Below are positions 23,118 through 62,700 of a stretch of DNA of 64,000 bases, piece by piece. The position numbers were made by a program, and so were the translations under genes. The first letter of the stretch is position 1, and the number at the start of each line of letters is the position of its first letter. Below the pieces are notes generated by a model, which ran no database searches, was not told the origin of the DNA, and saw only the letters and a list, made by a program, of their open reading frames with translations. Where the stretch lies: positions 62,001 to 126,000 of the forward strand of contig JAHBUW010000007.1 in NCBI GenBank assembly GCA_019637875.1. Direction: 5' to 3'. The stretch comes from Pseudobdellovibrionaceae bacterium. GTDB taxonomy: Bacteria > Bdellovibrionota > Bdellovibrionia > Bdellovibrionales > Bdellovibrionaceae.

Positions 23118-24668
23118 TCAAGGCGCAATAAGCTGCGAGCCTCCGGAATTGTCGTAAGTCACTTCCGCCGTCGTCCAATTCAGACCCACGTTTTTGTAGT
23201 AGCGGGCTTGGTTATGATTGATGTTGAGGGCGCGGCACTGGGTGTCCGTCACGCATTGGCCGTTATTTTTGCAGCGAGGGACCGTACCGTTCAGTGCGCC
23301 CGGATAGGTTCCTGATCCCAGCGGGTAGTTGACCTTCTGGGTGCAATTGGCATCGGCGTAGGCCTGTTGATCACCGTTCGAAGTGCCGAAGTAAATCGTG
23401 CGGACGCGCAAGGTTTGTCCCTTGTAGGTCATCGTCGAAGCAAGGTTGTAGCTCGCCCCGGGAATCTTCGGCAGGGGTTTCGTGCAGCGAATGAAACTTC
23501 CGAACTCTTGGCAATTCAGGTCCGCGGGGATTTCGGTCGAGGTTCCGGACGAAGTCCCGGTCCGCGTCGGCTCCTCGGTGGCCGCGACCTCACCGGCGAC
23601 TCCGCGAGCGGAGACGATCTGCGAACCGCCCGAATTGTCGAGCACGGCGACGGCGGTCGTCCACTGCCGGACTTTCGTTTTCACGTAGGCCGCGGCGCCC
23701 ACTTTCGTCGTCATTTTACGGCAGAAATTGTCGGTCACGCATTGGCCGCTCTCTTTGCAGGACGGGACTTTACCGCTGGCGGCGCTCGGGTAAATTCCCG
23801 AGCCCATCGGATAGTCGACGGTCTGCGTGCAGTTCTTGTCGGCATACGCCTGTTGATCGGCGTTCGACGTTCCGAAGTAGACGTAACGGAGTTTCAAGGT
23901 TTGTCCCTTGTACTTCAGCGTCTGGTCCGTCGCGTAGCTTGCGTCCGGGGCGCGTGGCAGTTCTTTAGAGCAACGAAGAAAATCGCCGTACTCTTCGCAG
24001 GTGTATCCGGCCGGCGCCGCGTCCTCGGTGTCGTCGATCCGCGCAAGACCGGCGTTGTCGTACAGGATTTCGGTTTGGGTCCACTTCTTCGTTTGGTTCA
24101 GATAGTACTTGGCGCCGCTGTAGCTTTTCGCGAGTTTTTGGCAACCGGACTTGGCGGGACACTGTCCCGTACCGTCGTCTTTGCAAGCGGGCACGGTGAC
24201 GCTGGTCGAGCGAATGTAAACGCCCGAGCCCATCGGATAGTTGACCTTCTGCTGACAGTTCGCATCGGCGTAGGCCTGTTGGTCGGAGTTGGAAGTTCCG
24301 TAATAAACGTGGCGCAGCTTCAAGGTGTAGCCGGCGTATTCGATCGTCGGCGGAAGCTCGTAGGTTTTACCGGGTTTAATTTCGATGCCCGACTTGCGCG
24401 AGCAGCGAACGTAGTTTTCCGCCGCGAAGATCTGGCATTCGTATCCGAGATCCGCGGCTTCGGTTTCGGTCGCGCTCGCCAGTTCGCGGGCGGCGACGCC
24501 GGGATCCGAGGTGAACAATCGACCGGCGCGACCCAGCCCCGTTTCTTCGATATCGAAACTCACTTCGCGGAACGCGCCTTCCGGCGAGCAGTTCTGAAAG
24601 ACGATGGCGGTCGTCACGATCAAAGCGATCGTGACACTGAACTTCCTGATCCAGTTGCAACGCGACAT
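23118..24668 (-). CDS. Exported protein with three tandem Cys-containing repeat domains (FQNC leader)
   Basis: No known family. A leader SVTIALIVTTAIVFQNC (Cys27) is followed by three copies of a domain of about 130 residues. Each copy carries a first Cys pair (YECQIFAAENYVRC-like), a strand, the near-invariant core GTSN-x-DQQAYAD-x-NC (about residues 122, 265 and 428), then NYPMGSG- or DYPMGSG-type loops, paired cysteines (CQ-VTD-type) and a closing WT-x-AE/ILYDN. Copies two and three are followed by similar linkers naming GGSQ. The pattern suggests a disulfide-stabilised surface or adhesin domain. GGGGGG precedes the ATG. Confidence 0.8.
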   Translation of the reverse strand: MSRCNWIRKFSVTIALIVTTAIVFQNCSPEGAFREVSFDIEETGLGRAGRLFTSDPGVAARELASATETEAADLGYECQIFAAENYVRCSRKSGIEIKPGKTYELPPTIEYAGYTLKLRHVYYGTSNSDQQAYADANCQQKVNYPMGSGVYIRSTSVTVPACKDDGTGQCPAKSGCQKLAKSYSGAKYYLNQTKKWTQTEILYDNAGLARIDDTEDAAPAGYTCEEYGDFLRCSKELPRAPDASYATDQTLKYKGQTLKLRYVYFGTSNADQQAYADKNCTQTVDYPMGSGIYPSAASGKVPSCKESGQCVTDNFCRKMTTKVGAAAYVKTKVRQWTTAVAVLDNSGGSQIVSARGVAGEVAATEEPTRTGTSSGTSTEIPADLNCQEFGSFIRCTKPLPKIPGASYNLASTMTYKGQTLRVRTIYFGTSNGDQQAYADANCTQKVNYPLGSGTYPGALNGTVPRCKNNGQCVTDTQCRALNINHNQARYYKNVGLNWTTAEVTYDNSGGSQLIAP

Positions 24669-39393: not shown

Positions 39394-40650
39394 ATGAACA
39401 GAATGGAGACTGGAATGGACAAGGCCAAAGACGCAAAGATGGATCCCAAAGACGCGAAGATCGCGGCTGAACGTGGGAAGGCGTTGGACCTGGCTCTGTC
39501 GACCATCGAAAAGCAATTTGGCAAGGGCTCGATCATGCGCTTGGGCGAAGATCAGAAAAGCCTGCACAAAGATATCGAATCGATTCCCACCGGGTCTTTG
39601 AGCCTCGATATCGCTCTCGGCATCGGGGGACTCCCGAAAGGCCGTATCGTTGAAATCTTTGGGCCTGAATCTTCGGGTAAAACCACCATCGCGCTGTCGA
39701 CTCTGGCGCAAGCTCAGAAAAAAGGCGGCGTTGTCGCTTTCGTCGATGCGGAGCACGCGCTGGACATCAGCTATGCTCGTAAACTCGGTGTGAAAGTCGA
39801 AGACCTCTTGGTCTCGCAACCCGATACCGGTGAACAGGCTCTCGAGATCACCGAGACGCTCGTGCGTTCGGGCGCGGTGGACGTTCTGGTTGTCGACTCC
39901 GTCGCGGCTCTGGTGCCCCGTGCGGAAATCGAAGGCGAGATGGGGGACAGCCACGTCGGTCTGCAAGCGCGTCTGATGTCGCAGGCTTTGCGGAAACTGA
40001 CCGCGGCGATCAACCGCTCGAACACTCTGGTCATCTTCATCAACCAGATCCGTATGAAAATCGGTGTCATGTTCGGGAACCCCGAAACGACCACCGGTGG
40101 TAACGCTCTGAAGTTCTACTCGTCGGTTCGTTTGGACGTGCGCCGGATCGGCGCGATCAAAAACGGTGACGATGTGACCGGAAACCGCACGGCCGTGAAA
40201 GTCGTGAAGAACAAGATGGCTCCCCCGTTCACGAAGGTCGAATTCGACCTCATGTACAACGAAGGGATTTCGCTCGAGGGCGACGTTCTGGATCTCGCGA
40301 CGGTCGCGAATCTGGTCGAAAAGTCGGGCGCATGGTTCAGCTACAACGGTGAACGCATGGGTCAAGGCCGCGATCAGGCGAAGAACTTCCTGAAGGAAAA
40401 TCCCAAGGCGCTCGAAGAGCTGCGCACGAAACTTCTGGTCGCGAAAGGCATCGGCCAACTTTTGATGGCGGAGCCTGAAAAAGACGGCGATGTTTCGAGC
40501 CCCGACGAAGTCGAGACGAAGGCTCCCGCTAAAGCGGACGCGAAGGCCGAGGCCAAAGCCGCTCCCGCCACTGCGGCGGCGAAAGCGAAGCCGGGACCCG
40601 CGATGACTCCGAAGGCGAAGGACGCCAAAGAGAAAGACGCGAAACACTAA
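39394..40650 (+). CDS. recA: Recombinase RecA
   Basis: RecA forms filaments on single-stranded DNA and drives homologous recombination. The core has all motifs: GPESSGKTT (Walker A), [10 protein letters not shown] (Walker B), loops [14 protein letters not shown] and [22 protein letters not shown], and the KNKMAPP region. Starts at 39394, 39403 and 39415 are in frame; 39394 follows GGAGAAGACAG. The ends are atypical: the first 20 residues and the last 50 are Lys/Ala/Asp-rich with KAKDAK in both, where many RecA proteins have a short acidic tail. A terminator follows. Confidence 0.97.
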
Positions 40651-40693
40651 TCGCTTTTAAAGAATATTGAGGGTCCTCCTCGATATGTTGTTG

Positions 40694-40732
40694 GAAGGGC
40701 GTTGCTTTAGCCGGCAGCGCCCTTTGTTTTTT
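40694..40732 (+). terminator. Terminator of recA
   Basis: AAGGGCGTTGC pairs with GCAGCGCCCTT around a seven- to nine-base loop, followed by TTGTTTTTT. It lies 45 bases after the recA stop and ends eight bases before the long inverted repeat. Confidence 0.85.
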
Positions 40733-40740
40733 CGGTTCTC

Positions 40741-41049
40741 CCTTCACCCGAGCTCCGGCCTCGTCGAGCTGAAGATCTGTGTTGGCGGCTGACCGACATT
40801 CCTTTTCTGATCTTCCATTGGGATTTCTAGTTCGCCCGCAGAGGATCTTCTCTTTCCTTCGGATGAGGGACGGCCATCCATGGCCTCAGGCCGCAGGGGA
40901 ATACGCCGTCCAGGCGCTGCGGAGCCCTCATCCGAAGGAAAGAGAAGATCCTCTACGGACGCATGAAGATCGAAAATGGAAGATCAGAAAAGGAATGTCG
41001 CTCACCCGTTCGCGCATCCGGCTCGACGAGGCCGGAACTCGAGTGAAGG
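40741..41049. repeat. Long imperfect inverted repeat (about 309 bp), unexplained
   Basis: This gene-free stretch (40651-41224) folds on itself. Outer arms 40741-40769 and 41021-41049 match at 27 of 29 positions, middle arms 40794-40818 and 40976-41000 at 25 of 25, inner arms 40840-40869 and 40925-40954 at 30 of 30. Between middle and inner arms are 21 bases on each side, mostly unpaired except at one end. Outside the middle arms is an asymmetric loop of 24 against 20 bases. The apical 55 bases contain GGCCA-TCCA-TGGCC. The two outer mismatches are C opposite A on the + strand and become G-U pairs in a minus-strand RNA. There are no obvious target-site duplications or transposase. A structured RNA or a MITE-like element are the main options. 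Confidence 0.9.
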
Positions 41050-41224
41050 AAGGGCGAAGCTTTTTGCGCGTCGACGCGGGGAGCGTGTGTAGAAAGGAAA
41101 GACGGCGTGGAATGGCATTGTAAGGCTTCGGTTGGGGGAGTTGACCGGTGAAGGGTGTCCGGTGAATTTGGGCGCGTCTTCGCGACTTCAAATCACCACT
41201 CAAATTTCCCGGGGGGGGGAATGC
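41050..41224. other. Gap between long inverted repeat and next gene
   Basis: It contains AAGC followed by TTTTT at 41061, just after the repeat, which could end a + strand transcript of the hairpin, and a G-run ribosome site directly before 41225. No gene is supported here. Confidence 0.4.
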
Positions 41225-41902
41225 ATGAAATTGTCTTTCGTGTTTTCGGCTATTTTGGCTTCGTTGGTTGGGTTTTCGGTGCAGGCGGCGGAAGTGACCG
41301 GCGCTTCGATCTCGGGCGATGAGTTGACCGTCAACGTTCGCCATGGTGGCGGTTGCGGCGATCACAAGTATGAGCTTGAGCTTCGCGGTTGTGCCGAGAG
41401 CATGCCGGTCCAATGCCAGGCTGTTTTGAAGCATACGACTCAGGACTTCTGCGAGGCGATCCTTTCGCGCAAAGCGACCTTCTCTTTGAAGCAGCTGGGT
41501 TTGACCGACGCTTACTACGCGAACGGCTCGCTCACGATCAAAGGGGCGAACAAGTCTTCGGCCACCGTGCGTTTGCCCGCGGGGGGACCCAGCGGTCCCG
41601 AGCCTCGCGCCGGTGGACGTCCGGTTGAGTGCGTGACTCACACCGATTCGATCATGACGATCAATGAAGCGGCGGGCTCGCTGTCGCTGGAAACCACCTC
41701 TGGTGAAACCGCGAACTACTCCATCGTGGATGTTGACGTCCTGATTCTGGAGTCGATGCCGCCGGTCGAACAGAAGACCTACGCGCTGGATGACGGCCGG
41801 AAAGTCGTCATCAGCTTCCGCGGCGAGCAGAAGACGGGCTCGGGTTACTTCATTCGCTTGAATGGTGAGGCTTCGCCCCAGTTCAAAAGCTGCCGCCGGT
41901 AA
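41225..41902 (+). CDS. Exported protein of unknown function
   Basis: ATG at 41225 follows a G-run and gives a 225-residue protein with a signal peptide (LSFVFSAILASLVGFSVQA). The mature part has two halves: one with GGGCGDHKYELELRGC (about 40-56) and further cysteines, and a second after a GGPSGPEPRAGG linker with C-terminal FKSCRR. The first half repeats the order Cys-x-beta-strand seen in other small exported proteins. No family recognised. A terminator lies 45 bases downstream. Confidence 0.72.
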   Translation: MKLSFVFSAILASLVGFSVQAAEVTGASISGDELTVNVRHGGGCGDHKYELELRGCAESMPVQCQAVLKHTTQDFCEAILSRKATFSLKQLGLTDAYYANGSLTIKGANKSSATVRLPAGGPSGPEPRAGGRPVECVTHTDSIMTINEAAGSLSLETTSGETANYSIVDVDVLILESMPPVEQKTYALDDGRKVVISFRGEQKTGSGYFIRLNGEASPQFKSCRR

Positions 41903-61867: not shown

Positions 61868-62700
61868 CCCCCTCCGTTTTTCGCAAGGCTGGCGCAGCTG
61901 GCTTTCGCAAAGTCGCCTTGGGGACCTGGAAAACCGCCGGGGACCCCAGCGTCTACGGTCTTGTCGAGTTCGACGCGACTCCCTGTCTTGAGCTCATCCG
62001 CTCCACCAAAGCCGAATATGAACGTCCCTTGTCGCTGACGAGCATCGTCGGTGCGGCCGTTGCGCGCGTGCTCGCACGTCGACCCGAGATCAACGCGATT
62101 CTGTACCGGGGAAGTATCCGGCGTCGCGAGACCGTGGATTTGTTCTTCCAGTTGAACGTGCCGGGAGCGGGACCCGATCCCGTCGCGGGCGCGGAGCTGA
62201 AGGGCGTGACGGTTCGTCGCGCCGACACCAAGGATCTGCGCCGCGTGCACGAGGAGCTGACCGGCAAGGTGCGCGACTCGAAGGCCGGCAAAGAAAACGA
62301 ACTCGATGCTTCGATGAAGGTCCTCGCGCTGTTGCCGACGTGGCTGATGGCGCTCGTGCTGCGGGCGGCGGCTTGGTTGAATTACGACATCGGCCTTCCG
62401 CTCACGTGGTTGGGGATGCCTAGGGATGCGTTCGGCTCGGTGATGATCACGAACGTCGGAACGCTGGGTGTCTCGGTGGCCTGGGCGCCGCTGGTGCCGT
62501 TCTCGCGCGTGCCGCTGCTGTTGACGGTGGGCGCGCTGGAAGACCGGGCGTGGGTCGTCGACGGCCGCGTCGAGGTTCGTCCGATCGTGCGTATGGGAAT
62601 CACCTTCGATCACCGTCTGATGGACGGCGCGCACGCGGCCGAAATGCAGAAACTCTTTTTGGATTATATGCGAAACCCGTCGGTCTTACTCGGCCAGTAA
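61864..62700 (+). CDS. 2-oxoacid dehydrogenase E2-type acyltransferase domain protein
   Basis: The TTG start overlaps the fliW stop. The 278 residues match only the catalytic domain of dihydrolipoamide acyltransferases, with GSVMITNVGTLGVS (channel) and the catalytic FDHRLMDGAHAAEM (His-x3-Asp-Gly). No lipoyl or peripheral-subunit-binding domain is present. It cannot work as a classical E2 alone; it may acylate another substrate. The middle (about 150-180) is hydrophobic and could associate with membrane. Confidence 0.86.
   Translation: MTPSVFRKAGAAGFRKVALGTWKTAGDPSVYGLVEFDATPCLELIRSTKAEYERPLSLTSIVGAAVARVLARRPEINAILYRGSIRRRETVDLFFQLNVPGAGPDPVAGAELKGVTVRRADTKDLRRVHEELTGKVRDSKAGKENELDASMKVLALLPTWLMALVLRAAAWLNYDIGLPLTWLGMPRDAFGSVMITNVGTLGVSVAWAPLVPFSRVPLLLTVGALEDRAWVVDGRVEVRPIVRMGITFDHRLMDGAHAAEMQKLFLDYMRNPSVLLGQ

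Follow-up and report, generated by a model that had tools for sequence, protein, structure and literature searches.

A giant hairpin downstream of recA belongs to a dispersed family of intergenic hairpins with a covarying head in the Bdellovibrio lineage

A giant hairpin at the recA locus

The window, by which we mean the whole 64-kb stretch of DNA analysed here (positions 62001–126000 of contig C7 in genome G000), carries recA, a complete terminator, a giant hairpin and a gene for a small protein, in this order. Within the hairpin, three nested pairs of arms enclose a structured tip, which we call the head; its lower strand is the minus strand in the window.

39394–40650, plus strand: recA, an open reading frame with a Pfam RecA match (E = 4.6e-141), the upstream neighbour of the hairpin
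40694–40735, plus strand: recA intrinsic terminator, a 13-pair stem (40694–40725) followed by a T tract, ending before the hairpin
40738–40769, no strand assigned: left outer arm, pairing with 41021–41052 (32 nt, 91% complementary)
40786–40819, no strand assigned: left middle arm, pairing with 40975–41008 (34 nt, 94%)
40833–40869, no strand assigned: left inner arm, pairing with 40925–40961 (37 nt, 95%; its mismatches are A.C)
40870–40924, minus strand: head, a three-way junction, placed by the match of our third model and by covariation; the lower strand is probably the form under selection
40872–40885, minus strand: mini-hairpin B of the head, GGCC-ATCCAT-GGCC, with the lower-strand loop ATGGAT
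40891–40922, minus strand: stem S1 of the head, CCGCAG/CTGCGG with the bulge GGGAATA, enclosing mini-hairpin A
within 40891–40922, minus strand: mini-hairpin A of the head, CGCC-GTCCA-GGCG, with the lower-strand loop TGGAC
40925–40961, no strand assigned: right inner arm, pairing with 40833–40869
40975–41008, no strand assigned: right middle arm, pairing with 40786–40819
41021–41052, no strand assigned: right outer arm, pairing with 40738–40769
41225–41902, plus strand: next gene, encoding a small protein with a signal-like N terminus (MKLSFVFSAILASLVGFSVQA) and no Pfam family

An earlier note on this DNA, made from the sequence, had described a giant near-perfect hairpin with three arm pairs, and this is what the locus contains: the arms at 40738–40869 and 40925–41052 form 110 Watson-Crick pairs in nested blocks, with 5 A.C and 3 G.T mismatches and 8 gap positions. 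The outer-arm and near-tip mismatches that it had named indeed place C opposite A on the plus strand. Its spacers of 21 bases on both sides depend on stricter arm limits; at the present limits the spacers measure 16/12 and 13/13 nt. Folding of both strands, which it had proposed, gives -239.6 kcal/mol for the plus strand (dinucleotide shuffles, -147.5 +/- 5.9; z = -15.6) and -239.4 kcal/mol for the minus strand (shuffles, -137.3 +/- 6.0; z = -17.1), and none of 100 shuffles of either strand folds as well as the hairpin.

The element spans about 315 bp and has no transposase gene; a 114-aa frame at 40779–41123 merely reads through the palindrome. A search across the 64-kb window for a second palindrome of comparable kind found none, and an Rfam search returned sub-threshold hairpin matches only, none above the gathering score. 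The recA terminator is complete before the hairpin begins, as had been claimed. At the right end of the hairpin we looked for a further terminator, a short GC-rich stem directly followed by a T tract, and found none; nor was a promoter-like site seen in the flanks of this copy. A 16-nt direct repeat (14/16 identical; 40693–40708 and 41048–41063) brackets the hairpin, its left unit lying within the recA terminator. We rejected this repeat as a target duplication, as it overlaps the terminator and is not directly adjacent to the hairpin at both ends.

A dispersed family with a covarying head

A blastn comparison with the same genome revealed about ten dispersed relatives of the recA hairpin, which match it in the central part only; each of them folds as a giant hairpin with arm sequences of its own and the same tip. 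A covariance model built from 11 copies and searched against a set of 40 related genomes located 14 dispersed copies in this genome, where the earlier note had suggested looking for them, and found matches in 15 of the 40 genomes, this one counted, with 39 in G010. Of 291 genomes of the phylum searched with a model of diverse heads, 31 contain copies; almost all carriers belong to the family and order of the window genome, and they are concentrated in the family of Bdellovibrio. A third model was built from 26 heads of other genomes and contains no sequence of this one. Its sole match in the window is the recA copy (40938–40856, minus strand, 71.5 bits, E = 1.5e-14), and it also recovers all 13 siblings in this genome, so the family membership of the recA copy is independent of the other copies here. 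The recA hairpin is thus a member of a family that is widespread and whose head covaries.

We found no published description of this family in the literature searched, which excludes most subscription papers. Among 80 listed stretches from a broad taxonomic pattern scan, a model search gave only one match, at chance level; the short head pattern of that scan held 16 fixed bases, which is too few. In G010:C168 (L081:4856–5227), tandem head repeats adjoin runs of N; the family thus appears to break short-read assemblies, and copy numbers may be lower bounds.

An alignment of 34 heads has a single common anatomy. Read on the lower strand, the arm is followed by G(A/G)CCTC, stem S1 and mini-hairpin A with a loop N[G/C]GAN, then by GTA and about five bases, the returning strand S1' and GAG, and finally by mini-hairpin B, again with a loop N[G/C]GAN, by CG(T/C)G and by the other arm. 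The stems of the head are swapped between copies and the loops and junction bases are kept, the loops, the GTA and the TC/AG junction bases being invariant or nearly so across genera. Of the 34 lower-strand loops of each mini-hairpin, 25 contain GGA in A and 31 in B, with CGA in the remainder. Across head and arms, 92.4% of alignment cells are paired and double changes occur at 24 of 29 pairs. Covariation scores 0.665, compared with 0.171 for shuffles and no more than 0.131 with the partner slid; for the head, though not for the arms, this figure is partly selected, because the head stems in the alignment were chosen by a search that requires pairing.

The genomic settings of the copies are diverse. 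Inverted pairs, absent from the window, occur in G018, in G010 and in a spacer of several Bdellovibrio genomes (L288, L285, L287, L336, L339, L342) that holds heads in each of them and inverted pairs in most; from their translations, we take the genes that flank this spacer to be rplL and rpoB. Within the genus, the sister genomes G117 and G024 have a copy in a spacer that is without one in most others. An all-against-all comparison of flanking open reading frames detected no gene that recurs beside the copies; its matches were for the most part between orthologous loci or within the palindrome, besides a few gene families common to three loci.

Such orthologous copies record the evolution of the arms. 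The G117 and G024 copies have mostly conserved flanks, but their inner arms and the stems of their heads have diverged and yet stay complementary; the rplL–rpoB spacers of G193, G225 and G161 follow the same pattern. Among the arm changes, double Watson-Crick replacements abound and wobble changes on one side only hardly occur. Template switching during DNA replication creates and maintains perfect stems with multi-base compensatory changes (PMC8794818), and double changes of this kind, lacking wobble intermediates, suggest that it is most likely what keeps the arms complementary here. Complementary arms by themselves are therefore no proof of function. The hairpins of the present family resemble those described for template switching in their perfect stems and in multi-base compensatory changes without intermediates, but differ in being dispersed bacterial elements with long arms and an added strand-specific signal (PMC8794818).

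Terminal sequences and mobility

A pattern search in this genome revealed a 966-bp insertion sequence (IS)-like element (G000:C8:27957–28922; L160:3458–4423) with the same ends as eight of the siblings, GAAACTG[G/C]nCCCTT or close variants. The element looks intact, with one 306-aa frame, the ends GAAACTGCCCC and a perfect 9-bp duplication, AATTTCTAA. Over 138 residues its protein matches the IS1 transposase of NCBIfam, with an E value of 2e-11, below the family's own cut-off. Relatives of the element are present in 20 of the 40 genomes, and the ends of related IS from other genera are similar, AAACTG[G/C]CCCCT. Perfect 9/9 target duplications lie directly at the ends of five of the eight testable siblings and of the IS itself; control pairs of left and right flanks are identical at a mean of 2.6 of 9 positions and at most 6 of 9 (n = 56). 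Ends in common with a resident IS, together with perfect 9-bp duplications, establish that the sibling copies moved as miniature elements (MITEs) of this kind of IS1-like element.

The recA copy stands apart from these siblings. Compared with GAAACTGSMCCCTT, the eight siblings have at most 4 mismatches at either end, and five of them at most 2, whereas the ends of the recA copy match with 7 and 4 mismatches at best and do not qualify as IS ends; its flanks agree at only 3 of 9 positions. The proposal that the hairpin is a non-autonomous mobile element therefore holds for the siblings, with 14 dispersed copies in the genome, IS ends and target duplications, but the recA copy has neither of the latter two, and we infer its mobility from kinship. 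Being longer and free of IS ends, it may be either an old, decayed copy or a member of a subfamily with other ends.

Direct repeats in the flanks of copies outside this genome are at chance level, and the evidence for IS1-mediated movement accordingly concerns the siblings in this genome rather than the whole family. Many heads lack IS1 ends, and in several copy-bearing genomes (G010, G019, G018) a search for a relative of the IS detected none. We also considered, and rejected, that inverted copies in G010 might bound a composite IS, since the interval of 1.2–1.5 kb holds small open reading frames among which no transposase was recognised on reading. Set against IS1-family MITEs, the siblings are alike in having the ends of a resident IS1-like element and a 9-bp target duplication, and the recA copy in being short, multicopy and free of a transposase gene. 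The family differs by the conserved structured head inside, which is wider in occurrence than the IS ends, and the recA copy differs further in lacking those ends.

A strand-specific signal and its possible explanations

With all copies oriented by the head, the surviving mismatches are distributed unevenly: A.C outnumbers G.T by 104 to 30, an excess shared by this genome, G010 and the remaining genomes. The signal comes from the inner 45 pairs, where the counts are 81:14 with the same sign in 11 of 11 lineages (p = 1e-12, a value that treats cells as independent although copies have common ancestry), and is gone from the outer arms (23:16). The A of the A.C mismatches is equally frequent on either arm. 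In inverted head pairs within one spacer, the excess appears in both orientations (24:4 and 9:3), which makes gene direction or replication strand an unlikely cause; we rejected a bias of either kind on this ground and on the mixed orientation of neighbouring genes, for which gene calls are noisy. As A.C on the upper strand corresponds to G-U or G-T on the lower, the lower strand of the head and inner arms seems to be where pairing matters, and this folded strand, as RNA or single-stranded DNA, is probably under selection. The earlier note had offered two readings of the mismatches. Its minus-strand transcript under pairing selection gains from the strand signal at the level of the family, although folded single-stranded DNA fits equally well; simple C-to-T decay does not account for an asymmetry that, in inverted pairs of one spacer, goes with the direction of the tip. 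The mobile-element proposal and that of a structured strand are compatible, and each is right in part.

Evidence on transcription comes from genome G105, which we take to be B. bacteriovorus HD100. The attack-phase transcript APsRNA6 of this strain (1,338,787–1,339,441; PMC3627812, Table 2) covers a head of the family in the plus sense (38.6 bits, E = 8e-8), and its mapped end falls within a degenerate inverted head. The covered head is matched by our model R1 but not by R3, so that its assignment rests on anatomy and one model. This indicates that family hairpins can be transcribed, at least through read-through. In the surrounding region (1,338,587–1,339,641; L369), APsRNA6 starts with an apparent membrane-protein frame of about 90 aa and has the head in its 3' part, and it may thus be an mRNA rather than a small RNA. 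The likeness to the present family accordingly lies in a transcript that spans one head and ends in a degenerate inverted one, and the difference in its probably being a small membrane-protein mRNA with a hairpin in its 3' part. The main text of the study that reported APsRNA6 mentions no repeat or hairpin family (PMC3627812).

The explanation that we consider moderately probable is that the recA hairpin is one member of a family of giant hairpins in the Bdellovibrio lineage, non-autonomous elements that lie between genes and whose lower strand is selected for pairing. Each copy would comprise up to three layers: an outer part, inner arms of about 30–45 bp and the conserved head. In recently moved copies of this genome the outer part would consist of IS1-like terminal repeats, allowing movement as a MITE with 9-bp duplications, as seen for the siblings and presumed for the older and larger recA copy. 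The sequence of the arms would drift freely and their complementarity be retained, most likely by replication template switching that copies one arm onto the other. In addition, the mismatch asymmetry argues for selection on pairing of the lower-strand head and inner arms, and the folded lower strand, as RNA or single-stranded DNA, might be recognised by a putative factor that propagates or keeps the element, much as a REP hairpin.

Several other accounts share part of this evidence. The family could be a plain set of IS1-type MITEs with no function of a folded strand, its arms maintained by template switching and its head conserved by descent alone. The target duplications and IS ends of the siblings are what such an account predicts, template switching is known to produce and maintain stems of this kind (PMC8794818), and wobble intermediates are almost lacking in the arms. 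We nevertheless regard it as unlikely, because loops and junction bases stay invariant, or nearly so, across genera while the stems around them are replaced, because the mismatch asymmetry is tied to head orientation and restricted to the inner arms, and because of the many heads without IS1 ends. We assign a similarly low probability to a lower-strand regulatory or structural non-coding RNA, or a protein-binding site on RNA, that was dispersed by an IS and then kept, for example as a decoy for CsrA. The preferential tolerance of G-U on the lower strand, the predominance of NGGAN among its loops and the head inside a published attack-phase transcript (PMC3627812) all fit this idea. The recA copy has no promoter of its own, however, no Rfam family corresponds to the element, its presence is patchy, and the head in APsRNA6 lies in the plus sense and is missed by model R3. 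For CsrA in particular, a minority of loops have CGA instead of GGA, a change that is hardly compatible with a CsrA site.

A giant transcription terminator, or a stabiliser of the 3' end of recA mRNA, is suggested by the position of the hairpin just 3' of the gene, by its enormous stability and by the end of APsRNA6 within an inverted head. We consider this very improbable: recA already has its complete intrinsic terminator and the right end of the hairpin has none, the genes around copies are in mixed orientations (with the noise in gene calls noted above), and the strand under selection is antisense to recA.

For an element whose lower strand is probably selected for pairing, a close parallel is with the REP, BIME and REPIN sequences, which are intergenic, multicopy, palindromic and non-autonomous, often occur as inverted pairs, show compensatory changes and carry a GT(A/G)G foot (PMC2817692). 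The hairpin family is alike in all of these but the foot: GTAG or GTGG next to the palindrome was sought in the head alignment and is absent. It differs further in its much longer arms and in two mini-hairpins set on a three-way junction. We looked for a cognate Y1 transposase gene flanked by two inverted copies, the arrangement of RAYT systems, and rejected a RAYT or Y1 transposase as the partner, given that no head lies within 1.5 kb of any of 30 Y1_Tnp loci and that these do not match copy number; copy-bearing genomes in which no Y1_Tnp was detected include G019 and G020. In a single case, a Y1 gene of G010 lies about 0.5 kb from a copy.

More tentatively, we put forward as a possibility that these hairpins represent a new class of bacterial mobile element, kept or propagated by way of a single folded strand. 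Its three-way-junction head, with two N[G/C]GAN loops, would stand on a long self-paired stalk and be recognised by a putative factor of the Bdellovibrionales; the element may gain IS ends and then transpose as a MITE, and its arms may be continually rewritten by template switching. Were the head to have a dedicated partner, this would amount to a REP-like mobile system beyond the known RAYT systems, in predatory bacteria, and the laboratory model strain HD100 permits direct testing of such a reading. The family is also a natural experiment, with dozens of long stems rewritten and pairing retained, some of them orthologous between sister species, and strand-specific mismatches can therefore separate maintenance by template switching from selection on a folded strand.

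Elsewhere in the window, the minus strand at 23118–24668 encodes a lipoprotein-like frame of 516 aa that consists of three repeats (DNA identity 74% and 60%).
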